From Gammaproteobacteria bacterium (GTDB lineage: Bacteria; Pseudomonadota; Gammaproteobacteria; Magnimaribacterales; D2472), in NCBI GenBank assembly GCA_002721465.1, contig PBKO01000003.1:14218-55711 (forward strand): a DNA stretch of 41,494 nucleotides. The letters run 5' to 3'. Position 1 is the stretch's first letter. Every line of letters begins with the position of its first letter. Positions 2,803 to 34,150 of this stretch are shown here, piece by piece. The notes below the pieces were generated by a model. It was not told where the DNA came from. It made no database searches and saw only the letters and a program-made list of their open reading frames with translations. The position numbers and the translations under genes were made by a program.

Positions 2803-3540
2803 ATGAATAAATTAATTTTTACAATGAGTTTAATATTTTCATTAAATTCATTTGCGCAAGAAAATAAGTATGAACCTGAAGCAAATAAAGCTGAGTATTA
2901 TGCTGTCAAATATTTACCAGGAAAAAACTATATGGATTTTAGAAATTGGGTTATGGAGAATCAAGAGAAAGTCCTGAATAAAACTGATGTTTATGATAAT
3001 TTTGATATTGCACTATTCCAACCTCAATTTGGTACAGACTTGACACAGTTTGACGCTGTATTTCTAGGGTTATGGCCGAACGCAACTGAAATGTTTGCAG
3101 GCATGGAGTACTGGACAAAAAATGGAGGGGAACAAAATGCTAAAGTTCCTGTAAAAACTGTTCAAGCTGTAGATACTTGGCAATGGGCAGTTTCTGCACC
3201 TGAGGGAGATCCAGACATTGGAGTTGTAAGATTTTCAGATTGTAAAATGAAAGATGGTGTAAATGCTAACCAAGTATTTGATGCACTTAAAGATTTTGCG
3301 ATTGCTGCAAAAGAAACTGGTGATAACCTTGGCAGAAAAATGATTTTTCCAGGATCTGGAGGAACAGAAGGAGATTATGACTATGTCTATTCTCTATATG
3401 CAAGATCAATTAGTGAATTAGGTGTTGGCAACGATAATTATTGGGAAAACATTCTCGGATCTGATGAGGATATTGCTCTTGGAGAACTTCTTGATAACTG
3501 TTCAAACTATAGAATGTATATTACTGAGAGACTAAGATAA
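2803..3540 (+). CDS. secreted hypothetical protein, two-module paralog family (close paralog of 18062..18814)
   Basis: Signal peptide; extended similarity by eye to the 18062 ORF (AEYY, DTWQ/NTWQ, SDC.....GVNA, GRKMI.P, DYDYV.......SI). Confidence 0.85.
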   Translation: MNKLIFTMSLIFSLNSFAQENKYEPEANKAEYYAVKYLPGKNYMDFRNWVMENQEKVLNKTDVYDNFDIALFQPQFGTDLTQFDAVFLGLWPNATEMFAGMEYWTKNGGEQNAKVPVKTVQAVDTWQWAVSAPEGDPDIGVVRFSDCKMKDGVNANQVFDALKDFAIAAKETGDNLGRKMIFPGSGGTEGDYDYVYSLYARSISELGVGNDNYWENILGSDEDIALGELLDNCSNYRMYITERLR

Positions 3541-3546
3541 ATCCCT

Positions 3547-3580
3547 CAAAAAAAAGGTCTTTTTTTAAGGCCTTTTTTTT
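3547..3580 (+). terminator. intrinsic terminator after the 2803 gene
   Basis: aaaaaaaaggtc-loop-ggcctttttttttt hairpin with T-tract. Confidence 0.7.
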
Positions 3581-3642
3581 TCAAATAAGAAAACTATTTT
3601 TATTTTTTTCATGTATGATGAAGGCCTTAATATAAGGAAACT

Positions 3643-3888
3643 ATGAATATATACGTTGGAAATATCTCTTGGGGTTTAAACGACCAAGATCTAGAAAACA
3701 TTTTTGCTGAATACGGTACCGTTACATCAGCAAAAATCATCACTGATAGAATGACAAACAGATCTAGAGGATTTGGTTTTGTTGAAATGAGTGATGGTGC
3801 AGAAGCTGCAATCGAAGCGCTAAATGGATCTGAGCAAGACGGAAGAGCTCTTGTCGTTAACGAATCAAGACCAAAAGATAAAAGTTAA
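3643..3888 (+). CDS. RRM-domain RNA-binding protein
   Basis: RNP2 IYVGNISW and RNP1 SRGFGFVEM motifs; 81 aa single-RRM bacterial protein. Confidence 0.95.
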   Translation: MNIYVGNISWGLNDQDLENIFAEYGTVTSAKIITDRMTNRSRGFGFVEMSDGAEAAIEALNGSEQDGRALVVNESRPKDKS

Positions 3889-4277
3889 TTTAAACCTTCT
3901 AAAGCTTCAATCATTTTTTCCTGTACTTTTTGGACGGCCTGATATGGCCTAATCATTACCTTGAAATCTACTATTTGACCATCTGAATTCCATTCGATCA
4001 TATCGACGCCATTAACTGATATGTCGTCTATAAATGTCTCAAATTCCAATACTGAATACATTCCATCATGAATTTCCTTTGTGTATAAGAACTTCTCCAT
4101 GTTGAAAGATTGACCGGCTGCAGCTAAATACATTTTTGTAATTTCTTTTCCAACAAGAGGCTTAAAGACGACTGGTGAAGAGAAGACAGCACCTTCAGAT
4201 ATTAATTGATCAAGTTTTTTCATTTCACTTGCATTAACAACTTCGTGCCATTTATGAATAAAATCTTTTGCCTGCAT
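3885..4277 (-). CDS. NTF2/SnoaL-like domain protein
   Basis: FIHKWHEVVNASEMKKLDQLISEGAVFSSPVVFKPLVGKE...DMIEWNSDGQIVDFKVMIRP is a SnoaL-like pattern. Confidence 0.8.
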   Translation of the reverse strand: MQAKDFIHKWHEVVNASEMKKLDQLISEGAVFSSPVVFKPLVGKEITKMYLAAAGQSFNMEKFLYTKEIHDGMYSVLEFETFIDDISVNGVDMIEWNSDGQIVDFKVMIRPYQAVQKVQEKMIEALEGLN

Positions 4278-4347
4278 TATATTTTCCTAAAATAAATTGT
4301 TGATATTATTTAGTTACAGTAATATCTTATTATCTTAGGAGTTAATT

Positions 4348-4776
4348 ATGAAGAATTTTTTAATTTTGACATTAATGCTTCCTGGTCTGCTGCTAGGAAT
4401 GCATCATAAAACAAATCCAATTATTTTTTATTTAGATCTTGATGTTGCCGAGGGAAAATCAGATGGTGCAGATAATTTTATAAATTATCTTGTAGAAACT
4501 GTAGAAAAAACTGAACCTAAAACCATGTATTACAAGTACTGGATCTCTGAGGATAAAAAAAGTGTGTCACTGATGGAAGTGTATCACTCAAATGAAGATG
4601 CAATTTTTCATATGAATGCTTTTGCTGAAGCACCTCACAGAGATAAGTTTCTTGAAACTTTTATTGTAAGTAGTTTTCAGGTTTTAGGAGACACTAATGC
4701 TGAGTTAAAAGAAGCTTTAAAAGCCTATACTGATGATCACCGAATGTTAGTTGATGGTTTTCAAAGGAACAAATGA
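4348..4776 (+). CDS. secreted protein with antibiotic-biosynthesis-monooxygenase-like (ferredoxin-like) domain
   Basis: Signal peptide; YYKYWISEDKKSVSLMEVYHSNEDAIFHMNAF resembles the ABM/dimeric alpha-beta barrel pattern. Confidence 0.6.
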   Translation: MKNFLILTLMLPGLLLGMHHKTNPIIFYLDLDVAEGKSDGADNFINYLVETVEKTEPKTMYYKYWISEDKKSVSLMEVYHSNEDAIFHMNAFAEAPHRDKFLETFIVSSFQVLGDTNAELKEALKAYTDDHRMLVDGFQRNK

Positions 4777-5144
4777 GTATGAATAATAAAGAACAAATAG
4801 AAACCTGCATAAATATTTATTATGAGGGTTGCTGCGAATCTGACCCTGCAAAAATTAAAGAAGCATTTGATAAAAATGCAATGATAAGCGGTTATTTACC
4901 AGATGGCTTACATGAAATGAATTTAGATGAATTTGCAGGATTTGTTGCTGATCAACAACCATCACCCAAGGAAAAGGGCGATGAAGAATTTCTAGAAATA
5001 ATTTCATGTGAAATAGTTGGAGATACTGCAATTGTTCAAATAAGAGAGGCATACTTGGGGATGACTTTTATTGATTCATTCTCTTTTTTAAAAAAGGATA
5101 ATTCATGGAGAATATACACAAAGTTATTCCATGTTGAGTCATAA
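4773..5144 (+). CDS. NTF2-like protein (putative lumazine-binding-like family)
   Basis: INIYYEGCCESDPAKIKEAFDKNAMISGYLPDGLHEM...GDTAIVQIREAYLGMTFIDSFSFLKKDNSWRIYTKLFH; ATGA overlap with the upstream gene. Confidence 0.75.
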   Translation: MSMNNKEQIETCINIYYEGCCESDPAKIKEAFDKNAMISGYLPDGLHEMNLDEFAGFVADQQPSPKEKGDEEFLEIISCEIVGDTAIVQIREAYLGMTFIDSFSFLKKDNSWRIYTKLFHVES

Positions 5145-5172
5145 AAATATATATACATAGAGGAGAAAATAT

Positions 5173-6069
5173 ATGTTCTTTAAAAATAAATTGATGATAG
5201 CGTTTGTAATAAGTATTTTATTTGTTACAAGCTGTTCAAATGAGATGTCTAATGAATCTCCTGGAGACAGAAAAGATGCAGAAATTTATGCAGAATTTGT
5301 AGATTCATTGGAAAGCACTGATGGACAAACCTATGTCGAATTTATGGCATGCACACGAGGACCAGACTTCAATGCTGAAAACTCTACAAAGATGATTGCA
5401 GATTGGCAAAAGTTAATAACTGCTGAATCATTGTTTGGTGTTTGGGGATATGTTCCAGCTGCAGATACAAATGCTTTTGGAGATTCGTTATGGTGGGAGC
5501 TGAATTGGAATTCAAAACAAGAAGCGGATGCCGAATGGAATGCTTGGAATCTGAATGAAGAGGCACAAGCTTGGGCTGAAGAATATTCAAATGTAATGGT
5601 TTGTGATGGAGAGGGAAGAAATTCTTTTGATGGCGTGTATCCAATTTTACCTAATACATATGGAGCTGTTAATGAAAGTGGATACTTTTACAGCGAATTT
5701 TATCAATGCAGTTATACCGATGGCTCAGATAGGACAAATGCTGAAGCTTTTTTACCAGGATTTACTGATGCAGTAAGTAACTCTGATTACAATGGAACTG
5801 GTTATTCGTATGCAAATTATTTTGCATATAAAAATGCAGACGGATCTCATACAGATGCAGATGTTGACTTTCTATGGGCAAATTTTTCAAATACTGAAGA
5901 TTCGATGGACAAAGCAGCTCAATCATTTGAAAAGGATGTGAGAGGTGAAATGTTTCCTTTATTTAGTGAGTTTGCAACTTGCGCAGAAGTTCCTGATGTT
6001 TATCATGGTTGGACATTTTACATAGGTGATAAAAAAGAGTTCATGCCTGATTTTTCATCAAGAGGCTAA
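5173..6069 (+). CDS. putative lipoprotein, two-module secreted paralog family
   Basis: Lipobox-like ILFVTSC; internal duplication (YVEFMACTRGPDFNAEN.. / YSEFYQCSYTDGSDRTNAE..), each half closing with VMVCDG or FATCAE. Confidence 0.75.
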   Translation: MFFKNKLMIAFVISILFVTSCSNEMSNESPGDRKDAEIYAEFVDSLESTDGQTYVEFMACTRGPDFNAENSTKMIADWQKLITAESLFGVWGYVPAADTNAFGDSLWWELNWNSKQEADAEWNAWNLNEEAQAWAEEYSNVMVCDGEGRNSFDGVYPILPNTYGAVNESGYFYSEFYQCSYTDGSDRTNAEAFLPGFTDAVSNSDYNGTGYSYANYFAYKNADGSHTDADVDFLWANFSNTEDSMDKAAQSFEKDVRGEMFPLFSEFATCAEVPDVYHGWTFYIGDKKEFMPDFSSRG

Positions 6070-6080
6070 ATCTTAAATAA

Positions 6081-6114
6081 AAAAGGAAGCTGCTTTGTGC
6101 AGCTTCCTTTTTTT
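6081..6114 (+). terminator. intrinsic terminator
   Basis: ggaagctgc-tttgt-gcagcttcc followed by ttttttt; 9-bp perfect stem. Confidence 0.9.
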
Positions 6115-6133
6115 GTGGTACATTCTACATATT

Positions 6134-7225
6134 ATGATTATTGGAGTTCCAACAGAAGTTAAAAATAATGAGAGCCGCGTTGGTTTGACGCCAAGTTCTG
6201 TGCAAAAAATTGTAAGTTCTGGACATAATGTTTTGATTCAAAAAAATGCTGGGGCAAATATTGGTTTTTTTGATGATCAATATTTAAGTTCAGGTGCAAA
6301 AATTTTAGACTCTGCAGAAGATGTATATAAATCGTCAGAAATGATCGTAAAAGTTAAAGAACCTATTCCAGATGAGTATAGTTATTTAAGAGATGATTTG
6401 ACTTTATTTACATACCTCCACTTAGCAGGAGATCCAGAAAACGCAAAAAGATTAATAGATACTGGAGTAACAGGTATTGCTTATGAAACTGTTACTGCTG
6501 CCGATGGCTCAATGCCGCTATTAGCACCTATGAGTACAATAGCAGGCCAATTAGCTTTTGTTGTTGGCTCGTATCATCTTTTAAAACACAATAAAGGAAA
6601 GGGTGTAATGATTGGGAAGATGGAAGATATTGAACCTAGAATTGTTACAGTTGTAGGTGCTGGAGTGGCTGGAACACAATCCATATCAAAAGCATTGGAC
6701 AACAATGCACTAGTGAAGGTTCTAGATACTTCAGAATCGAAATTACAGGCACTAGAGAAGGAATTTGGTTCAAAAAACATCGAGTATATTATCTCTACAA
6801 ATGATTCAGTGCAAACTTCAATCAATGATTCTGATTTGGTTATCGGAAGTGTTTATGTGGTTGGAAAAGAGGCTCCAAAAGTGGTGTCAAAAGATATGCT
6901 TATTTCAATGAAACCTGGAACTGTTATGGTTGATGTTTCAATTGATCAGGGCGGATGTTTTGAAAGTAGCAAACCAACTACTCACGATAATCCAACATTC
7001 GTTAAAAATGATATTGTTCACTACTGTGTTACTAACATGCCTGGTGCTGTTCCTTTGACTGCAACTGAAGCATTAAATAAAGTTACACTTTCTTACATAG
7101 AAAATTTGGCCAACAAAGGAATTGATAAAGCTCTTTCAGAAGATAAACATTTAAGAAACGGTCTTAACATCCAGCATGGAACTATTACTCATCAAGGTGT
7201 AAAAGATTCATTAGAAAAATTTTAA
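6134..7225 (+). CDS. ald: alanine dehydrogenase
   Basis: MIIGVPTEVKNNESRVGLTP start; ITVVGAGVAGT-type nucleotide-binding motif, MKPGTVMVDVSIDQGGCFE, NMPGAVPLTATEALN. Track start at 6095 overlaps the terminator, so the start is reassigned to the ATG at 6134. Confidence 0.96.
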   Translation: MIIGVPTEVKNNESRVGLTPSSVQKIVSSGHNVLIQKNAGANIGFFDDQYLSSGAKILDSAEDVYKSSEMIVKVKEPIPDEYSYLRDDLTLFTYLHLAGDPENAKRLIDTGVTGIAYETVTAADGSMPLLAPMSTIAGQLAFVVGSYHLLKHNKGKGVMIGKMEDIEPRIVTVVGAGVAGTQSISKALDNNALVKVLDTSESKLQALEKEFGSKNIEYIISTNDSVQTSINDSDLVIGSVYVVGKEAPKVVSKDMLISMKPGTVMVDVSIDQGGCFESSKPTTHDNPTFVKNDIVHYCVTNMPGAVPLTATEALNKVTLSYIENLANKGIDKALSEDKHLRNGLNIQHGTITHQGVKDSLEKF

Positions 7226-7235
7226 GGAGAAAATT

Positions 7236-8243
7236 ATGGAAAAAGTATTGGTAACTGGAGCAACAGGATATATTGCATTGCATTGTATTCACCAACTTTT
7301 AAATCAAGGCTATGCTGTTAATGGTTCCCTAAGATCTCCTGAAAGAAAAGATGAGATTATTGAGGCTTTAAAAAAAGATAGTACGCCAGTAGAAAATTTA
7401 AGTCTATTTACATTTAATTTGACCGAAGATGACGGATGGGATGAGGGAATGGAAGGATGTGATTTTTTACTACATGTTGCATCTCCACTTTCTATAAATA
7501 CTCACGATGAAGATTATTTTGTAAAACCTGCTGTGTCTGGTGTTAAAAGAGCATTCAAATTTGCAAAAAAACATAATGTAAAAAAAGTAATTTTGACTTC
7601 ATCAGTTGCTGCCATTTTAGAAACCGGTGAAGATAAAAAATATTTTGATGAAACGGATTGGTCTGATCCAGAAAGCCCTGAAATAAGTCATTATTCAAAA
7701 AGCAAAACTTTGGCTGAGATGGCAGCTTGGGATTTTGTGAAAGAGGAAGGACATCCATTTGAATTAGCAGTCATCAACCCTGCGCTTGTAACAGGACCAT
7801 CTTTAACAAATGATCTTGGTGAGTCTAATAAAGCAATAGAGATGGTGGTAACAGGAAAGATGCCAGTTGCAATACCTATTCAGTTTGGTTTTGTTGATGT
7901 AAGAGATGTTGCAGATGCACATATTCTTGCAATGAAAAGCTCATCAAGCAATGGTGAAAGATTTGCATTATCTGAAAAAGATCTTTGGTACAAAGATATT
8001 GCAAAAATACTTAAAAGCAACGGCTTTAATAAAGCACCAAGCTTAAGCGTACCAATATGGTTGGCTAAATTTTTGGCTAATTTCAACCAGCAACTTAAAA
8101 CTACAGTTCCTTTTATGGGAAGAGTAAGGAGCACAAGCAAAACAACCAAAGCTGAAGATATTCTTGGGTGGAATCCAAGACCTGCAGAAGAGTCTATTTT
8201 AGATGTTGCAAATCAAATTAAAGAGATGGGATTAATTAAATAA
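7236..8243 (+). CDS. NAD(P)-dependent epimerase/dehydratase (dihydroflavonol-4-reductase-like)
   Basis: VTGATGYIALHCIHQLL Rossmann motif, LLHVASP, YSKSKTLAE (YxxxK), VINPALVTGPSL. Confidence 0.92.
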   Translation: MEKVLVTGATGYIALHCIHQLLNQGYAVNGSLRSPERKDEIIEALKKDSTPVENLSLFTFNLTEDDGWDEGMEGCDFLLHVASPLSINTHDEDYFVKPAVSGVKRAFKFAKKHNVKKVILTSSVAAILETGEDKKYFDETDWSDPESPEISHYSKSKTLAEMAAWDFVKEEGHPFELAVINPALVTGPSLTNDLGESNKAIEMVVTGKMPVAIPIQFGFVDVRDVADAHILAMKSSSSNGERFALSEKDLWYKDIAKILKSNGFNKAPSLSVPIWLAKFLANFNQQLKTTVPFMGRVRSTSKTTKAEDILGWNPRPAEESILDVANQIKEMGLIK

Positions 8244-8985
8244 TACCTGGAATTACTGCTTTTCTATTTTTTGGATAGTTCTCAAACCTTTTTTTGTACC
8301 ATTTGTGATGCGCAATGGCTCTTGGAAATAGATTGGCTACTGTCCAAAGAAAGAAGACAAGACCAGCTGTACTTGCAGTTAAAATAGCCCAACCTAACCA
8401 TTCAATCATTTCTCCAAAGTAATTTGGAGATGAGATGTACTTATACAAAAAAGAATTTGGCTGATGATATCCTGGACCATTAATTTTTCTCAATGAAATC
8501 ATATAGTAGTCAGATTTGATATTTATATACATGCCGATAATAAATAAACCAATACCAATACAAAAATAAGGTTTCATAAACCATTGATATGAATATTCAC
8601 CAGAAAGAAAAATTCCATAAAATTGAATACTTACATTGATTAAATTAAAACCCAATGCCGAAATTGGAATACTCACAGGCATTTTTTGGTTTTTCATATT
8701 TACCACAAATGGATAGATAAATGTCCTATGAATGTAATGCATTAACCATAAGATCAAAAATACATAGTGAACAACATTTAGATTTTTATAAAAAATTATT
8801 GTAAAAAAAATCATCAGAACAACACAGGGTGACTCCATAACAATCCATCCAAGCCTGGCTGGAATTTCTTTACCCCAGCCTGTCTTGATATGTCTTCCAT
8901 ACGGAGCATTCTCAAAAAAAAGATAAATGAATGTTATTAATCCAACGATTAACCAAACCATTAAAAAAATATTAAAGAAACTCAT
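8236..8985 (-). CDS. membrane protein with steroid 5-alpha-reductase C-terminal-like domain (3-oxo-5-alpha-steroid 4-dehydrogenase family)
   Basis: Polytopic; SLRKINGPGYHQPNSFLYKYISSPNYFGEMIEWLGWAI...HHKWYKKRFENYPKNRKAVIPGI is the family C-terminal signature. Confidence 0.9.
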   Translation of the reverse strand: MSFFNIFLMVWLIVGLITFIYLFFENAPYGRHIKTGWGKEIPARLGWIVMESPCVVLMIFFTIIFYKNLNVVHYVFLILWLMHYIHRTFIYPFVVNMKNQKMPVSIPISALGFNLINVSIQFYGIFLSGEYSYQWFMKPYFCIGIGLFIIGMYINIKSDYYMISLRKINGPGYHQPNSFLYKYISSPNYFGEMIEWLGWAILTASTAGLVFFLWTVANLFPRAIAHHKWYKKRFENYPKNRKAVIPGII

Positions 8986-9065
8986 AATGTTTTAACTCTA
9001 TTAAAGTTTACATTTATGATTCTAAAACATAAACTTTATTAAAAATATTTTTGAATTTGAGATAA

Positions 9066-10754
9066 ATGAAAAGTTTTGATTTTATAATTTTAGGAGCTGG
9101 TTCAGCAGGATGTGTTTTAGCTAATAGGATAAGTGAAAATACTAATTATAAAGTTTGTCTTGTCGAGGCTGGCTTAAAAGATAGTGATCCAAGACTGCAT
9201 ATTCCAGTTGGTTTTGCTTTTTTGGGAGATGGCAAGGGAAAATATAATTGGGGTTATGAGACAGAACCACAAAAAGAATTCGAGAAAGTTGCAGTAACTG
9301 AGCCGCAAAGAGAGATGGTTGATTCAACTGGTGGTGTTCATAAAGTTGATGCTGAATCCTTCGATCATAGAAGAGGGTATCAACCAAGGGGTAAAACTCT
9401 TGGTGGATCAAGTTCTATCAATGCAATGCTTTATGTAAGAGGTCATAGATGGGATTATGATCATTGGTCTGAGCTTGGTAACAACGGCTGGTCTTATGAT
9501 GAGGTTTTGCCATATTTCTTAAAAGCTGAACACAACGAAATATTTAATGATGAATTTCATGGTCAAGATGGCCCATTAAATGTTACAAAAATTCGTCATG
9601 AAAATAGGCCTACAAAAGATTTTGTTGAGACGGGTTCGAAAATCTTTGGATATAACGATGATTTTAATGGTGAGAAACAAGAGGGAATTGGCTTTTATCA
9701 AACAACTCAAAAAGATGGTAAAAGATGCAGTGCTGCAAAAGCGTATCTAGTTCCCTGCTTAGAAAAAGAAAATCTTACTGTAATGACAGAAACCAATGTA
9801 AGTAAAATAATTATTGATAATAATAAAGCTGTTGGTGTTGAATGTTTAAATGATAAAGGAGAATTATTTTCAATAATGGCCAATAAAGAAGTTCTTTTGT
9901 CTTCAGGTGCATTTGGATCACCACAAATTCTTTTAAGATCTGGTATAGGCCCCTCTGAAGAGATTATCAAACATGATATTGAGCATGTTCATGAACTACC
10001 TGGAGTTGGGAAAAACCTTCAAGATCATATTGACTACCTTTCGGTTCACAGATACAACTCAATGGAATTAATAGGCTTTTCTTTGAAATCAATTTTTTAT
10101 AAATTCCCACTTGAGATTCTGAAATATATTTTTGCCAAAGTTGGTATGTTCACATCAACAGTGGCAGAGGCTGGTGGATTTATTAAATCTAATGATAAAT
10201 TAGATATTCCTGACATGCAGCTTCATTTTGCACCAGCTATGATTATCGATCATGGCAGAACAAGTGTATGGGGACATGGACTTAGTTGTCATGTGTGTTT
10301 GCTAAGACCAAAATCTAGAGGTGAAGTAACACTGAATTCCTCAGACCCAAATGATGATCCAAAGATTGACCCAAAATTTTTATCTCATCCTGATGATATG
10401 CGAGCATTGGTGGAGGGTTATAAAAAAATGATGATGATTTTAAATGAAGAACCATTATCAAAATATACCAGCAATCATGTTGAAAGACCTATAGACTTAA
10501 ATAACGATAAGGATATAGAACAGGCAATTAGAGAAGAAGCAGATACTGTTTATCATCCTGTTGGTACTTGTAAAATGGGCAATGACGATATGTCGGTAGT
10601 TGATGAAAATCTTAAAGTTCACGGTATTGATGGGCTGAGAGTGGTAGATGCATCAATAATGCCAACCCTTATAGGAGGGAATACAAATGCCCCAACAATA
10701 ATGATTGGTGAAAAAGCTTCTGATATTATTCTCGAATATTGGCAGAATAGCTAA
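9066..10754 (+). CDS. GMC family oxidoreductase (choline dehydrogenase-like)
   Basis: FIILGAGSAGCVLANRISE, RGKTLGGSSSINAMLYVRGH, SSGAFGSPQILLRSGIGP, YHPVGTCKMG, VVDASIMPTLIGGNTNAPTIMIGEKASD. Confidence 0.96.
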   Translation: MKSFDFIILGAGSAGCVLANRISENTNYKVCLVEAGLKDSDPRLHIPVGFAFLGDGKGKYNWGYETEPQKEFEKVAVTEPQREMVDSTGGVHKVDAESFDHRRGYQPRGKTLGGSSSINAMLYVRGHRWDYDHWSELGNNGWSYDEVLPYFLKAEHNEIFNDEFHGQDGPLNVTKIRHENRPTKDFVETGSKIFGYNDDFNGEKQEGIGFYQTTQKDGKRCSAAKAYLVPCLEKENLTVMTETNVSKIIIDNNKAVGVECLNDKGELFSIMANKEVLLSSGAFGSPQILLRSGIGPSEEIIKHDIEHVHELPGVGKNLQDHIDYLSVHRYNSMELIGFSLKSIFYKFPLEILKYIFAKVGMFTSTVAEAGGFIKSNDKLDIPDMQLHFAPAMIIDHGRTSVWGHGLSCHVCLLRPKSRGEVTLNSSDPNDDPKIDPKFLSHPDDMRALVEGYKKMMMILNEEPLSKYTSNHVERPIDLNNDKDIEQAIREEADTVYHPVGTCKMGNDDMSVVDENLKVHGIDGLRVVDASIMPTLIGGNTNAPTIMIGEKASDIILEYWQNS

Positions 10755-11071
10755 TGAAAAATCTTTTCACTGTTTTTTTAATACTTATCAGTTCTCAAGT
10801 TTTTTCTAGCGATCTATTTATTATTGATGTAAGGACAACACAAGAATATGAATCTGGTTATATTGAAAACTCCTTGAATATTGAGTGGCAAAATATTGAG
10901 ACAATTCCAAATGTAATTAAAAAAAATGACAAGATATATGTTTACTGCAGAAGTGGAAATAGATCTGGAAAAGCCAAAAGTATTTTAGAGAAACTTGGCT
11001 ACAACAATGTGATAAATATAGGTGGAATTGAGGAAGCCTCACAATATTTAAACAAACCAATAATAAAGTAA
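10754..11071 (+). CDS. rhodanese-like domain protein, probably periplasmic
   Basis: Signal peptide; FIIDVRTTQEYESGYIENSLNI and active-site loop YCRSGNRSGKA. Confidence 0.92.
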   Translation: MKNLFTVFLILISSQVFSSDLFIIDVRTTQEYESGYIENSLNIEWQNIETIPNVIKKNDKIYVYCRSGNRSGKAKSILEKLGYNNVINIGGIEEASQYLNKPIIK

Positions 11072-11090
11072 ATATCTTACTTAGCTTTTT

Positions 11091-12014: not shown

Positions 12015-12114
12015 ATGTTCAGTAAAAATATATAATTTATAGTACTTAACTTGACTTATTTTATTCAAAAAAGTCTAATGATCTATTAAATTTATTAATG
12101 CTAGGGGGACCAGC

Positions 12115-18061: not shown

Positions 18062-18814
18062 ATGAGAATATTATTAAGCGTATTTTTACTTTCAAGTTTT
18101 CTTGTTTTTGCTGATGATCATGAAGAAGATAAGCCAATGTATGAAGCTAATGTTGCGGAGTACTATTTTTCTTCCTTCAAAGAAGGCAAAGATATGGATG
18201 ACATGATGAAGTGGGCAGAAAAATGGGAAAAATGGGTGACGACTGGCGATGCTGCTGTAGCTAATGCAGATTATAGTGCATCAATCTTAATACCATATTA
18301 TGGTGTTAACTTAGATCAGGTAGATTTTGTATGGCTAGGAATTAATTCAAATCCTGAAATGCAAGCTGTTGGAAATGACTACTGGGTTCAAAATGGTGAA
18401 AAGCTTTTAGCTGAACTGCCAGTTACAAATTCACAAGTTGCAAATACTTGGCAAAGGACTGTTTCTGAGACACCAGATGGCTCTGCAGGATATGTTGTTT
18501 ATTCAGATTGCAGATATGGCGAGGGTGTTAATGCTCAACAGGAATACGATGCATGGTTTGCTTTTGCTCAAGCTGCAAAAAAATTAGGAGATGTCGCTGG
18601 CAGAAAAATGATTTGGCCTACTATGGGGATAACACCTGGATGGGATTATGATTATGTGCAAGCTGTATACACATCTTCAATAACTGATTATGGTAAAAAC
18701 TGGACTAACTTTTGGGGTGCAGATAATGAGATGCCTGAATATGAAGCAATGGTTGCAATGGGTGGTGAGTGTGAAAATGAAAGATCATTTACTATAGTTC
18801 CAATCAAAAACTAA
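18062..18814 (+). CDS. secreted hypothetical protein, two-module paralog family (close paralog of 2803..3540)
   Basis: Signal peptide; conserved AEYY...GK.MDD...W, SDCRYGEGVNAQQ, GRKMIWP, DYDYV. Confidence 0.85.
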   Translation: MRILLSVFLLSSFLVFADDHEEDKPMYEANVAEYYFSSFKEGKDMDDMMKWAEKWEKWVTTGDAAVANADYSASILIPYYGVNLDQVDFVWLGINSNPEMQAVGNDYWVQNGEKLLAELPVTNSQVANTWQRTVSETPDGSAGYVVYSDCRYGEGVNAQQEYDAWFAFAQAAKKLGDVAGRKMIWPTMGITPGWDYDYVQAVYTSSITDYGKNWTNFWGADNEMPEYEAMVAMGGECENERSFTIVPIKN

Positions 18815-22658: not shown

Positions 22659-22884
22659 TACCAACAGCGTCCGACCAATGACCAACTGCAGACGGGATAC
22701 TTGGAGAGATGTTGAGGGAAGAGACCGAAGGGTGAAAGCACTTGCAAGAGTCGGCGATAAAAAAGAGCTTGCGAAGTCCACCAAGAATTCAAGAGAAAGA
22801 ATTCGAGGAGCTGAAGAAAATCTCACTTTAGACCCCTGAGGAACTCGAACTTAAGAAAACAGAGCTAGACTCTGTTTTTTTTTT
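22659..22884 (+). ncRNA. putative structured non-coding RNA of unknown family (~225 nt)
   Basis: Starts just after the promoter and ends at terminator aacagag-ctaga-ctctgtttttttttt; ~47% GC over 22661-22860 by hand count, clearly above the AT-rich surroundings; hairpin ACTTGCAAG / CTTGC(G)AAGT at 22740-22748/22768-22777; alternative pairings GAATTC/GAATTC and TTCGAG/CTCGAA. No ORF >=60 aa on this strand. Confidence 0.6.
22856..22884 (+). terminator. intrinsic terminator of the putative ncRNA
   Basis: aacagag-ctaga-ctctgtt followed by tttttttt. Confidence 0.88.
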
Positions 22885-22927
22885 GTCTTGCATATAGGCA
22901 AGTAATCATTAACATGCATCTATTATT

Positions 22928-24340: not shown

Positions 24341-24397
24341 TAATTATCAATCCTTATTTTGTTACAATAGATTTTTAACTATCATTACGGGGAAAGA

Positions 24398-25963: not shown

Positions 25964-25969
25964 AACTTT

Positions 25970-27838
25970 ATGAAAAAGTTATTTTTTTTAGTTTTCTTTT
26001 GTGCTTTAACATCAGCAGAAGTTAAATGGTCTGATGTTAATGAATGTGTGCTTCCAGATAATTCTATCTTCATAAATAATATTATTAATAAAATGACTTT
26101 AGAGCAGAAAGTTGGACAAATTATCATGCCTGAAATTAATAACATTACACCTCAAGATGCAAAAAAGTATCATTTTGGAACCATTTTAAATGGTGGAGGT
26201 GGGTTTCCTAATCAGAATAAAAATAGCAAGATAAATGATTGGAAAAAACTGAGTGAAAGTTATTATGATGCTTCTACAGAAGTTGATGGAACAAGAATAC
26301 CAATTCTTTGGGGAACAGATGCAGTTCATGGACATAACAATGTAATTGGAGCAACAATTTTTCCTCACAATATTGGATTAGGTGCAACTAGAAATATAGA
26401 GCTAATTGAGTCTATTGGGCAAGCTGTTGCAAAAGAGGTTCTTTCAACTGGAATTATATGGACTTTTGCTCCAACTATTGCTGTTCCTCGAAATGATACT
26501 TGGGGTCGAACATATGAAGGTTTTTCGGAAAACACAAATCTAGTCTCAAAATTTGGCCAAAGTTTTATAGAGGGACTCCAAGGAGAAGACAAAGAATTTC
26601 TTGATGAATACCATGTGCTTGCTACAGCCAAACATTTTGTTGGTGATGGAGGCACTTTTAATGGAATTGATCAAGGAAATACAATTATTAATGAACAATC
26701 TTTGAAAGATATTCATGGCAAACCTTATTATGATGCTATAGATGCTTGTGCGCTCTCAATTATGGCAAGTTTTAACTCATGGAATGGAAAAAAGATGCAT
26801 GGAAATAAATATTTATTAACCGATGTGCTAAAAGATCAGATGAATTTTAATGGATTTATTGTTGGGGACTGGAATGGGCACGGACAAATTCCAGGATGTC
26901 AGGATGCAGATTGTCCTAATGCAATCAATGCAGGTGTAGATATTTTTATGGTACCAGAACAATGGGAAGGACTTTATTGGAACACTTATGATCAAGTAAA
27001 AGCTGGAATAATATCAATTGAGCGACTAGACGATGCAATTAGAAGAATTTTAAGTGTTAAAAAACATCTTGGTCTTTTTGATGGTAGGAAACCTCATGAA
27101 TTTAAGGATAATTTTTTTGGAAATAATAAGCATAGAGAAATTGCAAGACAAGCCGTTAGAGAATCAATTGTTCTTTTAAAAAACAATGACTCTGTTATGC
27201 CTATGAATCCATCAAAAAACTATTTAATCATCGGAGATATTTCAAAACATATCGAAAATCAAATGGGTGGATGGACAATTACATGGCAAGGTAAAACATG
27301 GGAGGGAGTAGAATTAACAAATGCTGATTTTCCTAACACCAAAAGCCTTTATCAATCCATTTACGATTATGTAACTAAATTTGGTGGCAATGTAGAATTT
27401 TCATCTGATGGTACATATAAAACTAAACCTGATCATATAATCATGGTCTATGGTGAGACTCCATATGCTGAGGGAGAGGGTGATATTGATGATTTAAATT
27501 TCAGCAAAAGCAATAAGGAAATTCTTTCAATGATGTCAGAATTGACTTCAAAGGGCTATCCAATAACCTCATTGTTTCTATCTGGAAGACCATTAGTAGT
27601 AAATGATGAACTTAATATGTCTGATGCATTTGTTAGCTTATGGTTACCAGGAACAGCTATAGAGGGTATCAATGATGTTATATTTTCAAAAAAAGACAAT
27701 TCAATAAACTTTGATTTCAAAGGAAAACTCTCCTATTCATGGCCAAAGAGCAAATCCCAGCATTCAAATATTGGCAACACTGACTACGACCCACTATTCG
27801 CATATGGATATGGCTTAACTTATAAAGATTCAAAATAA
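25970..27838 (+). CDS. glycoside hydrolase family 3 beta-glucosidase-like exported enzyme
   Basis: Signal peptide; KMTLEQKVGQIIMPE, WGTDAVHGHNNVIGATIFPHNIGLGATRN, ATAKHFVGDGGT, GFIVGDWNGHGQIPG (nucleophile region). Confidence 0.96.
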   Translation: MKKLFFLVFFCALTSAEVKWSDVNECVLPDNSIFINNIINKMTLEQKVGQIIMPEINNITPQDAKKYHFGTILNGGGGFPNQNKNSKINDWKKLSESYYDASTEVDGTRIPILWGTDAVHGHNNVIGATIFPHNIGLGATRNIELIESIGQAVAKEVLSTGIIWTFAPTIAVPRNDTWGRTYEGFSENTNLVSKFGQSFIEGLQGEDKEFLDEYHVLATAKHFVGDGGTFNGIDQGNTIINEQSLKDIHGKPYYDAIDACALSIMASFNSWNGKKMHGNKYLLTDVLKDQMNFNGFIVGDWNGHGQIPGCQDADCPNAINAGVDIFMVPEQWEGLYWNTYDQVKAGIISIERLDDAIRRILSVKKHLGLFDGRKPHEFKDNFFGNNKHREIARQAVRESIVLLKNNDSVMPMNPSKNYLIIGDISKHIENQMGGWTITWQGKTWEGVELTNADFPNTKSLYQSIYDYVTKFGGNVEFSSDGTYKTKPDHIIMVYGETPYAEGEGDIDDLNFSKSNKEILSMMSELTSKGYPITSLFLSGRPLVVNDELNMSDAFVSLWLPGTAIEGINDVIFSKKDNSINFDFKGKLSYSWPKSKSQHSNIGNTDYDPLFAYGYGLTYKDSK

Positions 27839-27848
27839 ATTTACAGAA

Positions 27849-28757
27849 ATGAAAAATATTTTATTAGTGGATTTTGGTGGGACCAATATGCGATATGCAT
27901 TCTCAGAATCTGGATCGTCAAAGATTAATAATATTGTAAAGTCTTCATTTAGAAGCATAAATGAATTTGAAGATCAATTAGAAGATTTAATAAGTTCAAA
28001 TGATATAAAAATTTTAATAATTTCAATTGCAGGTCCAAAAATTAACAATGAAGTTAACATGACAAATAGAGTTTATGTTTTTAATTCAGAAAACTTTAAA
28101 GAGAAATATAATTTAAACGAGTGTCACCTCTTAAATGATTGGGAGGCCATCGCACACAGTTATGATTTTGTTGCTGACAGCATAAAGACAATTAAAGATG
28201 GAAATAAGTTTAATAATAATACTCTTTTTGTCGGGCCAGGAACTGGCTTAGGGGTTTCATTTCTAATTGATAATATGCTTGTTAGCCCAACTGAAGTAGG
28301 AAATACATCAAATTCAATAAGTTATCTGAGTAAAAATTTTAGTTTTGGTATAAATCAAAACATCACTCTTGAAGAAATTGTTTCTGGAAATGGCATAGCT
28401 AATTTATTTAAAATAAAGACTAACAAAGATATATCCTCTGAAGAAGTTTTTAAGATGTATGATGATAATGATCTTGATGCCCAAGAAATAGTTCAAGGAT
28501 TTACTAAATCTTTTGCAAATATCCTTTCTGACCTTGCTTTAACTTTTATGCCCGGAAATGGGATATTACTTGCAGGTAGCTTATCTAGAACATTGTTTAA
28601 TATATTGGATAAAGAGCTTTTTATTAGTCATTTTTATGAAAATAAAAAAGCTACTCATAAAGATATTCTTAAAATGATTTCAATTGGTGTAATCTTTAAA
28701 GAGCAGTCACCACTATATGGAAATTTAAATTTTTATAATAAATTAAAAAATAAATAA
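27849..28757 (+). CDS. glk: glucokinase
   Basis: LLVDFGGTNMRYA phosphate motif, LLNDWEAIAHSY, FVGPGTGLGVSFLI; follows GH3 after 10 bp. Confidence 0.92.
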   Translation: MKNILLVDFGGTNMRYAFSESGSSKINNIVKSSFRSINEFEDQLEDLISSNDIKILIISIAGPKINNEVNMTNRVYVFNSENFKEKYNLNECHLLNDWEAIAHSYDFVADSIKTIKDGNKFNNNTLFVGPGTGLGVSFLIDNMLVSPTEVGNTSNSISYLSKNFSFGINQNITLEEIVSGNGIANLFKIKTNKDISSEEVFKMYDDNDLDAQEIVQGFTKSFANILSDLALTFMPGNGILLAGSLSRTLFNILDKELFISHFYENKKATHKDILKMISIGVIFKEQSPLYGNLNFYNKLKNK

Positions 28758-28792
28758 AAATATTAATACATTGTGTATAATCACGTTTAAAT

Positions 28793-28987
28793 ATGGCAGA
28801 TAAAAAACAAACCAAAGTATATTTAATACCAGAAGATGAAACTAGAGATAGTCATACCTATCACTATACTGCTATTAAAACTAGAAAATTTACTCTTGAA
28901 AATAAAAAAATGAGATTAAAAAAGTTTAATCCTGTTAAAAGAGTGCATGAATGGTTTGTAGAAGCTAAGCTCCCACCTCATAATTAA
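28793..28987 (+). CDS. rpmG: 50S ribosomal protein L33 (divergent, Cys-free)
   Basis: TAIKTRKFTLENKKMRLKKFNPVKRVHEWFVEAKL matches the L33 core (..TKNKR..P.KLELKKFDPVVR.HV.YKEAK). Confidence 0.85.
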   Translation: MADKKQTKVYLIPEDETRDSHTYHYTAIKTRKFTLENKKMRLKKFNPVKRVHEWFVEAKLPPHN

Positions 28988-30090
28988 TCTTTAGTAAGTC
29001 TTAACGTTGTAGAAGAAATATCGTCTCTGAAACTTTTCTCTTCAAAACCTGTGCATCGATCTTTAATGACGTCAGGGACTGAAATTTTATCTAAAGAAAC
29101 AAATTTTTTACCAACTTTTCTTCCAAAGACTAAGAAATTAATATTATGATCGTTGAATCTTTGGATATGTTCAATCATATTATCGTAGCTATCATAAAAT
29201 TTTTCATCAAAAACTCTCATTAAGGTATCTGCGCCAATAATAAACACTGAATTAGGAAACATTTTTGCTTTTTCACTAAAACGTCCCGCAGATGTAAGCA
29301 ACCAACTTTCATTATTTTGAAATTGATCTATTGTTCTTTTGATTTCATAGAATGTGAGAGGAGGCTTATCAGCATTATTTGCACAAATTTCAAATGTTGT
29401 ATGAAGTCCAGTTCTTTTCTCAGCAATATCTTTCATTTTCAAATGACCTTCATGCAAAGGATTAAACGATCCAGGAAAAATCAACTCAGGAGCATTTTTA
29501 ACATTTGAAATGTAATCTACTTTATTATTAAATAACTTTTTCCATGATTTTTCTGCATCTATCTGTTCGATTTTAATTTCTTCAGCATGATCAGGAAATG
29601 GATAATCAAGTCTGCATGAGCTTGCCAAAAGACTTATAGCATACTCTGTAATAAGCTCCTCTTCTTGTTGACGAGTTCTTGATCCTTTTTCAAGAAAGCA
29701 CTCAACATATTTTGTATAACTTTCTGTTTGAGCAACAATATAAAATTTATGATCACCAAGTTTAGTGTATGTTGTTGCTAAATTTGCTGTAATTGCGAAG
29801 CCAATCAAATGTTTCTTTTTAGTTTTTGCTTCAACCTCACAGGATTTCTTATAAGCATTCGCAGCCATACTAAGACATGTATCTAGAGAGCAGTAATGAT
29901 CAGGGATTTTCTTCAAGAAAATATTCATCGACTCTTTTGAGTAGGGTATGTAGGATTCAATAATAGTATTACTTGCGCCTGGTACTTCTAATAATGATGA
30001 AATGGCATTAGTACCACCACCACTTGATACAAAAGTTATTTTGTATGGTGACTTATGAATTTTCTTTATTATTTTTTTTATTTGTTTCAA
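28984..30090 (-). CDS. fusion of CinA/PncC-like domain with cytidylyltransferase-like (NMNAT-type HxGH) nucleotidyltransferase
   Basis: N-terminus VSSGGGTNAISSLLEVPGASNTIIESYIPYSKES resembles CinA C-terminal amidase; C-terminus FPGSFNPLHEGHLKM, FIIGADTLMRVFD, DDISSTTLR are nucleotidyltransferase motifs. Confidence 0.82.
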   Translation of the reverse strand: MKQIKKIIKKIHKSPYKITFVSSGGGTNAISSLLEVPGASNTIIESYIPYSKESMNIFLKKIPDHYCSLDTCLSMAANAYKKSCEVEAKTKKKHLIGFAITANLATTYTKLGDHKFYIVAQTESYTKYVECFLEKGSRTRQQEEELITEYAISLLASSCRLDYPFPDHAEEIKIEQIDAEKSWKKLFNNKVDYISNVKNAPELIFPGSFNPLHEGHLKMKDIAEKRTGLHTTFEICANNADKPPLTFYEIKRTIDQFQNNESWLLTSAGRFSEKAKMFPNSVFIIGADTLMRVFDEKFYDSYDNMIEHIQRFNDHNINFLVFGRKVGKKFVSLDKISVPDVIKDRCTGFEEKSFRDDISSTTLRLTKD

Positions 30091-30151
30091 GAGTCTATAA
30101 ATTTTTAAGTATTTTAACCCAATTATTGATTTTGGTTGTTAGAATTAAAAC

Positions 30152-31009
30152 ATGAAATTAGTTTATAGGTTAATGTTTTTGCAAGTGCTTTTTTTAAGCA
30201 CTTTAATCTTTGCTGATGCAAAGATCACTACCTTTGCTTATTGGGACAAACCAGATGTTGATTTATGGTATTCACTTCCTAAAGAGATTAATAAAAACAC
30301 AAAAGTGTTATTTGTAATTCATGGCGCATCGAGAGATGTTAAACGCTATTTCAGAGCAGCTTACAAAGAAGCAAAAGATAAAAACGTAATTTTGGTTGTT
30401 CCTCACTTTAAAAAAGAAGATTTTCGTTATTACTATACCTTAGGTATGTCAACGAATGATGGTGAGATTATTTCAAATGACAATAAACATTTGACATCCT
30501 CAATATCATCTTTCTTCAAATATTTTCAAAGCAAATATCAACTTTTTCAAAAATCATATTTGATATATGGATTTTCCGGCGGATCACAATTCGTTCATAG
30601 ATATATGATGTATGGAGACGATCAAGCCATTGACAAAGCTGCCATTGGAAGTGCAGGTTGGTATACTTTTATAAATAGTGAACCATTCCCATATGGCATT
30701 AAAGATAAACCAATTGATAAAGATCGCATGGCAAGATTTATGTCTAGAGAAGTGCTATTTCTTTTGGGTGAAGAAGACAATAGTCCCAACCACTCTTCGC
30801 TAAATTCAAGCAAGGGTGCTATGAATCAAGGCAATAACAGGCTTGAAAGGGGAATTAGATATTTTCAAAATTTAACTAAAGCATCTGAAAAGCTTGAACT
30901 ATCATTTAGGTGGAGATACAAGCTGGTAAAAGGCTTAGATCATGATACATATGGAATGACAGAAAATGCTTTGCCTTATTTGCTTTCAGATCAAGATTAT
31001 GAAAATTAA
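30152..31009 (+). CDS. secreted alpha/beta hydrolase
   Basis: Signal peptide; VLFVIHGASRDVKRYFRAA, nucleophile elbow YGFSGGSQFVHRYMM, terminal His region GLDHDTYGM. Confidence 0.8.
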   Translation: MKLVYRLMFLQVLFLSTLIFADAKITTFAYWDKPDVDLWYSLPKEINKNTKVLFVIHGASRDVKRYFRAAYKEAKDKNVILVVPHFKKEDFRYYYTLGMSTNDGEIISNDNKHLTSSISSFFKYFQSKYQLFQKSYLIYGFSGGSQFVHRYMMYGDDQAIDKAAIGSAGWYTFINSEPFPYGIKDKPIDKDRMARFMSREVLFLLGEEDNSPNHSSLNSSKGAMNQGNNRLERGIRYFQNLTKASEKLELSFRWRYKLVKGLDHDTYGMTENALPYLLSDQDYEN

Positions 31010-32502
31010 AGAGTATTTTCTTCTATAAATTCTTCAGCTTTTTCAAATATCATTTTTTTTCTATCTAATTTCATATTTGATAATGATCTAGTCATGACTG
31101 CAAGCCTTGGATTTGATTCAAAAAATTTTAAATTTCTTTCAACAAACCTCCAGTAAAGACCATCAACCACATCACACCAGTCACCTTTTTTATAATTCGA
31201 CATTCTAAGCATATAACTAGAACCACAAATATATGGTTTGGTAGAAAATATTCCTCCATCAGCATATGAACCCATACCATATACGTTTGGAACCATGACC
31301 CAGTCATAAGAATCAATATACATTTCCATAAACCATCTATACATTTCATTTGGATTGATACCAGTAAGATTCATAAGATTAGCAATTATCATTAGTCTAT
31401 TAATATGATGAGTATATGCATACTCATTAGATTCTTTTATAGCATCATCTAGAGGAGGGATGCCTGTAGAGCCTTCATACCAATTATTATTGAGTTTTAA
31501 TTTATGTGACCAGTAATTTAAATTTTTGTACTGCGGCATATTTTCCCAGTAAACACCTCTTATAAATTCTCTCCAACCAAGAACCTGTCTAATAAAACCT
31601 TCAACAGAATTAATTGGGATTTTGCCATTGGATTTTCGGTATCTATCTTCTGCTTTTTTTATGCAAAATTCAGGATCTAATAAACCAGAGTTTAAATATG
31701 GAGAAAGCAAAGAATGAAACATAAATGTATTGTCTTTGTTAATAGCATCTTGAAACGAACCATAATTTTCAAAAAATCTATTTAAAAAATCTTCTAAAAG
31801 AAGCTCTGCGTCTTTGTGGGTAGTTGCCCAATTAAAGTTTTCTAGATTTCCAAATGATTTTGGAAAACACTCTTCAACATCAACCATTGTGTTAAATGTA
31901 GTTTTGTTTGATTTTAGTATTTTTCTACTTGGTATTTCTGATTTTAACTGTGAAATACCTTTTCTGTTTTCTTTATCAAAATTCCATTTTTCTCCCACTG
32001 GCTTTTGATCATCTGTCATTAAAATATCGTATTTTTTTCTTAACCATCTATAGTAATATTCTTGTATTCTAGTTTTCTTATCTGAGGCCCATTCTTCAAA
32101 GTCAGAATCAGATGAAATAAATTTTTTATCATCCAATATTGATAATTCAACATCATTTGATTGGCAAAAAAACATTAGGTCTTTGTAAACTTTAAAATCA
32201 GAAGGTTTTGAAATTAATATTTTTTCAAAGTCATTATCATGAAGAATATCTTTTAAATAGTCAGCTAATCTTCGATTTTCACCCTTAGATACTCTATGGT
32301 GAATAATATTTTTATGAGTTTGTTTAGATACTAAACTTCTAAATGCACTTAATAATAATACTAATTTATGCTTATGATGTTTTATTTCATAAAAAGTATC
32401 AATTGGCTCGTAAAACAATAAAAAATCATTGGTATCTATATCTATCAGAACAGGATTATTCTTAGATAATTGATCAGGAAATATAATACGTAAAGACTTC
32501 AT
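31006..32502 (-). CDS. cryptochrome/photolyase family protein, FeS-BCP (deoxyribodipyrimidine photolyase-related)
   Basis: IIFPDQLSKNNPVL, MFHSLLSPYLNSGLLDPEFCI, VEGFIRQVLGWREFIRGVYW, YTHHINRLMIIANLMNLTGINPNEMYRWFMEMYIDSYDWVMVPNVYGMGSYADGG, YICGSSYMLRMSNYKKGDWCD (FeS Cys region). Confidence 0.95.
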   Translation of the reverse strand: MKSLRIIFPDQLSKNNPVLIDIDTNDFLLFYEPIDTFYEIKHHKHKLVLLLSAFRSLVSKQTHKNIIHHRVSKGENRRLADYLKDILHDNDFEKILISKPSDFKVYKDLMFFCQSNDVELSILDDKKFISSDSDFEEWASDKKTRIQEYYYRWLRKKYDILMTDDQKPVGEKWNFDKENRKGISQLKSEIPSRKILKSNKTTFNTMVDVEECFPKSFGNLENFNWATTHKDAELLLEDFLNRFFENYGSFQDAINKDNTFMFHSLLSPYLNSGLLDPEFCIKKAEDRYRKSNGKIPINSVEGFIRQVLGWREFIRGVYWENMPQYKNLNYWSHKLKLNNNWYEGSTGIPPLDDAIKESNEYAYTHHINRLMIIANLMNLTGINPNEMYRWFMEMYIDSYDWVMVPNVYGMGSYADGGIFSTKPYICGSSYMLRMSNYKKGDWCDVVDGLYWRFVERNLKFFESNPRLAVMTRSLSNMKLDRKKMIFEKAEEFIEENTL

Positions 32503-32521
32503 TTTTTAATTATAATTCATC

Positions 32522-33265
32522 ATGATGAAATTCTTTTTTAAAACATTAATAATATTTTTTATTTTTTCATGTTCTGACAGTAAAGATAAATCTTTTTTGG
32601 AAGCTAACTTATTAGTTAATCCAGAGTATAAATTTTCAGATCAATTTATGTATTGCAATTTTAATAAAGGCTTTAACGTATTAAATCTTGAATCATTTTT
32701 ATCAGGATTTATTGAAGATAAGTTCATTGAAGACACTGATTCTTTTGATCTGTCTGTTTTGTTTGCTGATTCAACAAATATAAATGAATTTATTTTCAAA
32801 CTTAGAAATTACTCAAGCAATAATATTTATGAAACTTTTATAGAAAAACTTAGCAATAAAGGTTTTGATGAAATCGCATCTTGTAAATTTAATGAAGAGC
32901 AATTAAGAGGCTATTTAGTTTTAGAGTTAGATAAAAAGATTGATAACTCTTCTTATACAAGCGAAATACTAAATTGTAATTACAACGAGGGTTATAATTT
33001 TGGAACATTTAGAATCGCTCTTGATAGGTTTGTAAGTGAGATTAAAAAGCAAGATATATTATACGAAGCTGAATATCTTCAAAATGATAAATTAGAATCA
33101 AGTTTTATATGGATAAATAAGTATTATGAGGATGATTATTTAGACATGCTTACTGATAAGTGGATTACTAATGATAATGCATCAGGAATAAAAGAGGAGT
33201 TTTCTGAAAATGCAATTTGTGAAGGTTCAAAGATTTATAATTCGTTCCTAATCTCAAAAATATAA
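32522..33265 (+). CDS. putative lipoprotein, two-module secreted paralog family
   Basis: Lipobox-like FFIFSC; two repeats YCNFNKGFN...SCKFN and NCNYNEGYN...AICEG. Confidence 0.72.
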   Translation: MMKFFFKTLIIFFIFSCSDSKDKSFLEANLLVNPEYKFSDQFMYCNFNKGFNVLNLESFLSGFIEDKFIEDTDSFDLSVLFADSTNINEFIFKLRNYSSNNIYETFIEKLSNKGFDEIASCKFNEEQLRGYLVLELDKKIDNSSYTSEILNCNYNEGYNFGTFRIALDRFVSEIKKQDILYEAEYLQNDKLESSFIWINKYYEDDYLDMLTDKWITNDNASGIKEEFSENAICEGSKIYNSFLISKI

Positions 33266-33318
33266 AAGTAAATAAGAAGAAATTACACTTCTTTTTGATT
33301 ATAATCTCTCAACTGAAA

Positions 33319-33394
33319 GCGGGTGTGGTGTTAATGGCTAGCACAATAGCCTTCCAAGCTATTGGTACGGGTTCGAATCCCGTCACCCGCTCCA
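33319..33394 (+). tRNA. tRNA-Gly(TCC)
   Basis: GCGGGTG acceptor, ATAGC-CTTCCAA-GCTAT anticodon arm, CGGGTTCGAATCCCG T-arm, CACCCGC, encoded CCA. Confidence 0.97.
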
Positions 33395-34150
33395 TTAACT
33401 TCTGATTACAGTACCTTTAAAACTAATTCCTTCGAGATTCTGATTTTGATTACACGAAACCATTGCCTGAGCCTTTGCAGGTAGATCAGTTGATTCCCAT
33501 ATTTCAGTATCTGATGCTTTGTCAGCATCAGAGCCCCATAAATCTAACCAAACAAAATCTGGTTTAGGATCATCAGGCACAAACATTGGCTCGAGAAGTA
33601 CATACCAATGATAATCGGAGAATGATTCAATGTTAGCTAATTCAGATCGATATGAGTCTAAGTCACTCATTGCAAAACCTTCATTAAAGTTACAAAAGAA
33701 AAAAGAATTTACAAATGAGCCAGTATCATTTTGTTTTTTTGGAATCCTTCCTGTAGTAGGCTTAAAAAGATAAACATTATCTAAGTCATATTGCATCACT
33801 CCATCAATAGCAGTATCCCAATCTGATTGATAGCTACTACCTTCCCAAGCATTCCAACATTCATCCCTTGCAGATTGAGATGTCCATAAATGAACCCATA
33901 TGAAATCATATCCTTCGTTTGCTGCTTCTGGAGTAAGAATATTTGCACCATTAAGTCTACAATTCATCTCGTCTAGCATTGTATTCCACATAGTAATTAA
34001 CCCAGCTAAATTTTGTGCAGAAAAATTTGGACCAGCTTTCATCCAGGTGTATTCAACCATTGATTCTGGCTGTGAAGATGCTTCTTGTTCACTTTGAGAG
34101 CAAGCACCTATTAAAAAAAGAGATGTAAGTAATAGAAATGATTTTTTCAT
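33395..34150 (-). CDS. putative lipoprotein, two-module secreted paralog family
   Basis: Lipobox-like LIGAC; MVEYTWMKAGPNFSAQNL resembles the 5173 ORF; FFFCNFNEGFAMSDLDSYRSEL matches the 32522 ORF; closing AMVSC. Confidence 0.78.
   Translation of the reverse strand: MKKSFLLLTSLFLIGACSQSEQEASSQPESMVEYTWMKAGPNFSAQNLAGLITMWNTMLDEMNCRLNGANILTPEAANEGYDFIWVHLWTSQSARDECWNAWEGSSYQSDWDTAIDGVMQYDLDNVYLFKPTTGRIPKKQNDTGSFVNSFFFCNFNEGFAMSDLDSYRSELANIESFSDYHWYVLLEPMFVPDDPKPDFVWLDLWGSDADKASDTEIWESTDLPAKAQAMVSCNQNQNLEGISFKGTVIRS

Follow-up and report, generated by a model that had tools for sequence, protein, structure and literature searches.

SAR86 bacteria are among the most abundant of the surface ocean, and their genomes are small, near 1.2 Mb. 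A stretch of 41,494 nucleotides from one genome of this group (the window) contains five open reading frames that an earlier note had brought together as secreted proteins built on a duplicated module. The question raised by the locus is whether these proteins are indeed related, which fold they adopt, and what they may do outside the cytoplasm. The source assembly (986 kb, 80% complete, 21 contigs) has its closest named relatives among SAR86 cluster bacteria, with protein identities of 94–95% for C and 98% for A, the ortholog of the latter being present in another SAR86 genome. The order containing SAR86 has been named Magnimaribacterales (PMC11582366).

The five proteins and their export

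All five genes were found where the earlier note had placed them, only the last one lying on the minus strand. Their products, for each of which a tandem ferredoxin-like architecture is predicted, are:

A, 2803..3540, plus strand: 245 aa, signal peptide; Cys pair C147/C233 in module 2
B, 5173..6069, plus strand: 298 aa, lipoprotein (C21); Cys pairs C60/C144 and C179/C270
C, 18062..18814, plus strand: 250 aa, signal peptide; Cys pair C150/C237
D, 32522..33265, plus strand: 247 aa, lipoprotein (C17); Cys pairs C45/C121 and C152/C233; signature motif in modules 1 and 2
E, 33395..34150, minus strand: 251 aa, lipoprotein (C17); Cys pairs C64/C98 and C153/C233; convergent with D

The export signals claimed for these proteins were recovered, as signal peptides in A and C and as lipoboxes in B, D and E, so that A and C are predicted to be soluble and B, D and E to be lipoproteins. 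The lipid-anchor Cys of the latter three is invariant in the subfamily alignments (38 of 38 rows for E/B, 20 of 20 for D) and is followed by Ser in each of them, which, by the sorting rule of E. coli, predicts a location at the outer membrane. The N-termini of A and C are of the cleavable type with no lipobox, as judged by eye. This last point and the fact that the AlphaFold2 models are uninformative on location leave some room for the alternative that export was misread and that A–E are cytoplasmic proteins with hydrophobic N-termini. Such a reading is very improbable given the invariance of the lipobox Cys, the signal-like character of the A and C N-termini and the coupled Cys pairs discussed below, which fit an oxidizing compartment. 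Thus, export of the family is strongly supported. Comparison with the nearest genomes yielded dN/dS values of 0.06 for A, 0.07 for B, 0.10 for C and 0.14 for D; these four genes are under purifying selection.

Signature motif and relatedness

Across the 12,875 residues encoded by 38 non-overlapping open reading frames of the window, there are six instances of the motif C-x-[FYM]-x-[DEK]-G, all of them within A–E; when the A–E sequences are shuffled, a mean of 0.025 proteins carry it. The motif had been described as common to the modules, a description that holds for six of the ten half-modules (module 2 of A, B, C and E and both modules of D) and fails for the other four. In module 2 of the wider family the exact pattern is found in 60 of 124 members and the looser C....G in 99 of 124.

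Pairwise BLAST connects A with C (37% identity, E 7e-39), B with E (E 9e-11) and D with E (E 2e-4). For each subfamily, a profile was constructed with homologs from 107 genomes of the same family, and profile–profile comparisons gave, as single-comparison E-values, 6e-84 for A with C, 2.5e-25 for B with E, and 3e-9 for A with E over 234 columns (probability 96%). With the signal peptides removed, the A/C and E/B profiles match with a probability of 95.6%, and E/B and D with one of 88%. The direct comparison of A/C with D under the same conditions reached only 2% and gives no support; the kinship of A/C with D therefore runs through E. Among half-module profiles, the best links were those between module 1 of A/C and module 2 of E/B (97%) and between module 2 of E/B and module 2 of D (94.5%), while modules 1 and 2 of E/B matched each other at 58%. 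The comparison of profiles, half-modules included, that had been suggested as a check on homology thus shows A–E to be homologous, directly or through E, and at the level of sequence A–E are established as one family. The shifted profile matches, along with the structural models, also support an internal duplication.

The earlier note had recognized no named family, and the searches bore this out, with no significant match in Pfam, NCBIfam, PHROGs or the sequences of the PDB. A–E gave sub-threshold noise only in the first three libraries, none of 35 plus 38 family members exceeded a curated Pfam cut-off, and family sequences and profiles found only noise in the PDB. A description of the family was not found in the open-licence literature. 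The family is, therefore, without a name in the libraries searched, and it is a variant of a fold that is itself already known; since neither Pfam nor NCBIfam has a model for it, annotation pipelines that depend on them leave it unnamed.

Fold and structural neighbours

AlphaFold2 models of C (mean pLDDT 89.8, from a 35-row alignment) and of E (mean pLDDT 89.3, from a 38-row alignment) both exhibit two consecutive beta-alpha-beta-beta-alpha-beta units, the module of the ferredoxin-like alpha+beta barrel superfamily, and Foldseek led from them to tandem alpha+beta barrels. The tandem ferredoxin-like layout proposed from the sequence is, accordingly, found in the models, and a two-module fold of this type is strongly supported for C and E, that of A, B and D being predicted from homology. 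Both models superpose over their full length on PDB entry 2pgc (marine metagenome protein jcvi_pep_1096685590403), itself a two-module alpha+beta protein, over 222–229 columns with a target TM-score of 0.70–0.76 and an rmsd of 3.5–4.0 Å. By analogy with it, the two modules would pack as a pseudo-dimeric barrel. For model C, 2pgc is the top PDB neighbour by TM-score (0.63–0.64 on the query, 0.75–0.76 on the target), but only the sixth by E-value, behind chains of the chlorite dismutase (Cld)/HemQ type with TM-scores near 0.5; for model E it is first by both TM-score and E-value (3.5e-9). The entry, released in 2007 by structural genomics, is described as a marine metagenome protein only. Its identity with C and E is just 9–11%, and it was absent from the matches at E values up to 10 with the profiles of all three subfamilies, so that 2pgc was not linked to the family as a member by sequence.

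The structural matches to Cld and HemQ (coproheme decarboxylase), which also have two ferredoxin-like modules per chain, raise the possibility that A–E are haem or porphyrin binders related to these proteins, for haem capture in the periplasm or as peroxidases. The matches span both modules (Foldseek E about 1e-8 to 1e-6, probability 1.00), and tandem alpha+beta barrels of the Cld/HemQ superfamily often bind haem, for which the known haem-binding barrels provide a His ligand (PMC4835899). In the present family, the most frequent His column is occupied in only 19 of 124 members, and the His ligand found in the C-terminal module of Cld/HemQ is missing. Furthermore, the TM-scores to these proteins are about 0.45–0.55, lower than the 0.6–0.76 to 2pgc, and searches of the PDB and Pfam with family profiles and members detected no sequence similarity to them. 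The family also differs from Cld/HemQ in being exported and predicted to be disulfide-bonded. Because no His is conserved, a haem role is improbable, and assignment as Cld/HemQ-type haem enzymes was rejected.

The module topology of C and E is also that of the small dimeric alpha/beta-barrel domains ABM, EthD, Dabb, DUF1330 and NIPSNAP. A–E differ from them in being tandem, exported and predicted to contain disulfides, and no Pfam model reaches its cut-off in any of the members scanned.

Cysteine pairs

The distribution of Cys residues was surveyed in 124 family members, non-redundant at 80% identity. The module-2 pair is complete in 123 of them, the single exception being a truncated open reading frame. 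The module-1 pair is present in 63 members and absent in 61, with no case of one Cys alone. In a maximum-likelihood tree, the state of this pair switches three times, both residues changing together on each occasion; with only three switches no significant sign test is possible, and the force of the argument lies in the lack of singletons. E-type proteins have a separate module-1 pair, C64/C98, which is also all-or-none (both residues in 12, neither in 8). A second Cys near the end of the module had been noticed earlier as usual; module 1 of A and C has no Cys, and in module 1 of E the pair is the different C64/C98. When the module pairs, C64/C98 and the lipid anchors are added up, no Cys of mature A–E is left unassigned.

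In both models, one module-2 residue ends beta-1 and the other opens beta-4 or just precedes it; by the established topology of the ferredoxin-like sheet, these two strands are neighbours. The paired residues are predicted to form a disulfide between adjacent strands, and their placement in the models, along with the joint gain and loss of both residues, supports the strand–strand staple that had been proposed. The disulfides may replace the stability that cytoplasmic relatives gain by other means.

Distribution and copy number

Among the 107 genomes of the same family, subfamily searches gave matches in 78 with A, 89 with B, 84 each with C and E, and 81 with D, and the E/B profile matched in 173 of 199 genomes of the SAR86 order. 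When 369 genomes sampled across the class were searched with the latter profile, it matched four, all within the SAR86 order, and no gammaproteobacterium outside it. A pattern scan across 84,980 species returned 78 loci, nearly all from SAR86. That the family is found in SAR86 only was nevertheless ruled out by A-type members on four Porticoccaceae/SAR92/Cellvibrionales contigs of 44–45% GC, which form one supported clade of their own. Contigs labelled Flavobacteriaceae and Hyphomicrobiales are instead probably misbinned, as their sequences are nested among SAR86 rows and their GC content is 33–34%.

The expansion to five members that had been noticed is correct for the window, but five is a local count, since other SAR86 genomes have up to nine members and there are additional subfamilies. 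With a joint profile, 1–9 matches were obtained per near-complete genome, nine being found in SAR86A, although some matches are fragments of a single gene. Of two weak matches in the genome of the window, one (C20) was out of frame and was discarded, and the other (C14) turned out to belong to a second exported tandem family of SAR86 (L003/L188 type). The proteins of this second family, found in 62 of 106 genomes and often encoded near C, are exported, about 240 aa long and internally duplicated (HHalign, 79–92% within each profile). Their profile similarity to A/C (92%) and E/B (68%) is weak and partly driven by the signal peptide, and, unlike A–E, they are without the Cys signature.

Gene neighbourhood and proposed role

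Several genes of the window adjoin those of the family:

2133..2654, minus strand: SnoaL-like (NTF2-fold) lipoprotein adjoining A, the stand-alone form of a domain fused to E-type proteins elsewhere
3885..4277, minus strand: small SnoaL_2-like protein between A and B (PF12680, 24.1 bits; cut-off, 27)
4348..4776, plus strand: exported single-domain protein of 142 aa, with a distant resemblance, by eye, to ABM domains (phmmer to A, E 0.014)
7236..8985, downstream of B: 3beta-HSD-like epimerase (plus strand; PF01073, 52 bits) and steroid 4-dehydrogenase-family protein (minus strand; PF02544, 158.5 bits), not members of the family

The Pfam families Steroid_dh and 3Beta_HSD are both broad. The 142-aa protein has no Pfam or PDB match, and its orthologs are next to B in three further loci (L310, L311 and L314). 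The E-type fusion proteins, of about 400 aa, have an N-terminal SnoaL-like domain whose PF12680 match is below the cut-off; the N-terminal half of one of them (L057) is 39% identical to the 2133..2654 protein (E 2e-36). Directly downstream of B, the window has a block encoding 3beta-HSD-like, Steroid_dh, GMC, rhodanese, patatin and TonB-receptor proteins. This order is conserved in six further loci (L308–L311, L314 and L317) spread over four or more genera, whereas genera g3, g5 and g7 do not keep it. Immediately 3′ of C there is a gene for a FAD monooxygenase, both in the window and at 35 related loci.

The organization of the family genes themselves could indicate that the paralogs are structural or assembly subunits, which would associate as envelope hetero-oligomers and play no part in handling small molecules. 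D and E are a conserved convergent pair, 128–183 nt apart, with a tRNA-Gly gene in the gap within the window. In other genera, D is directly upstream of an A/C gene on the same strand (16 loci), the A/C gene is in turn followed by another paralog, in most cases 1–3 nt away, to give operon-like groups, and in one genome (G110) five family genes form an array. The low conservation of residues other than Cys between subfamilies would also be in keeping with such subunits. On the other hand, many genomes keep A/C with no adjacent partner gene, and the SnoaL fusion and the oxidoreductase and TonB context point toward small molecules, making a purely structural assembly rather unlikely.

With small molecules as the target, A–E might be cofactor-independent monooxygenases or isomerases similar to ABM or EthD proteins, whose substrates outside the cytoplasm would be aromatic or polyketide-like. 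The fold class is identical, a SnoaL-like domain is the partner in the fusions, and the FAD monooxygenase encoded after C would fit such chemistry. However, the catalytic residues of either family were not recognized in A–E, no Pfam model matches, and the conserved residues vary from subfamily to subfamily, so that this activity is unlikely. That few residues other than Cys are conserved across the subfamilies, among 124 members, makes any common catalytic site doubtful, and a role in pure binding, or a structural one, is possible.

The role that we tentatively propose, as the likeliest of those considered although possible rather than probable, is the handling, within the cell envelope, of small hydrophobic molecules. 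The proposal is based on the class of fold, the fusions with a SnoaL-like domain, the neighbouring genes and the published use of lipids, steroid-like and aromatic compounds by SAR86, which is described as rich in TonB receptors (PMC11582366). Neighbourhood counts as weak functional evidence here, because SAR86 genomes are small and syntenic. The two-module barrel would leave a pocket lined by aromatic residues, in which the paralogs would bind steroid-, isoprenoid- or aromatic-type compounds, and some of them may transform their ligands with no metal or haem. They would act together with the SnoaL-like lipoproteins, as a step linking TonB-dependent import across the outer membrane to the oxidoreductases of the adjacent genes, the copies having diverged for different ligands or acting as partners.

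Concluding remarks

By extending this proposal, SAR86 would have evolved its own envelope handlers of small molecules through repeated duplication of a tandem barrel with disulfide bonds. Some members would be lipoproteins of the outer membrane and others their soluble partners in the periplasm, and together they would pass compounds of the steroid or isoprenoid type from TonB receptors on to enzymes. This full scheme is speculative and, taken as a whole, doubtful; if true, the SAR86 set would be an analogue of the lipoproteins that assist TonB systems in sugar uptake, although unrelated to them in fold.

The all-or-none Cys pairs are a clean example of disulfides gained and lost as units, and the family gives 2pgc, solved in 2007 with no function, its nearest biological context. 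Up to nine genes of a small SAR86 genome are devoted to one uncharacterized exported family, which, being kept in most of these streamlined genomes and under strong purifying selection, is probably central to SAR86 feeding or to the protection of its envelope. With the availability of a SAR86 isolate, HIMB1674 (PMC11582366), direct tests of the family have become conceivable.

Additional family members and other exported proteins

Besides the five exported two-module proteins of the window (A to E), a further paralog was found beside the signal-peptide subfamily (A/C), together with a second exported family and exported single-domain proteins encoded near C or B orthologs.

L215:4417-5193, further family member directly 3' of A/C, other genus
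L223:8762-9541, the same, other genus
L174:8751-9527, the same, other genus
L003:1501-2214 (own genome, contig C14), second exported family
L188:4687-5433, second exported family
L186:7564-7986, single-domain protein, about 140 aa
window 4348-4776, single-domain protein, about 140 aa

In the L174 paralog the two module-1 cysteines are jointly absent. The convergent D-E pair of lipoprotein genes is tandemly duplicated in SAR86A (L049; G054:C1:313404-316658). The second family (about 240 aa, internally duplicated, present in 62/106 genomes) lacks the Cys signature, and in several genomes its gene lies immediately 5' of the C ortholog. By eye, the sequences of the two single-domain proteins look like single ABM-type domains; neither has a match in Pfam.

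Two contigs (L194, L206), deposited under the labels Flavobacteriaceae and Hyphomicrobiales, are probably misbinned, since they are nested inside SAR86 in the tree and their GC is SAR86-like.

IMES-1 RNA

The window also carries an IMES-1 RNA, flanked by a DUF1330 gene and pyruvate kinase.

22665-22858, + strand, IMES-1 RNA (RF02034), 187 bits

Matches above the Rfam cut-off were obtained in 70 of the 121 genomes of the SAR86 order, some with two or three copies, as opposed to none of the 14 control genomes; IMES-1 RNA thus evidently has one of its main hosts in SAR86.
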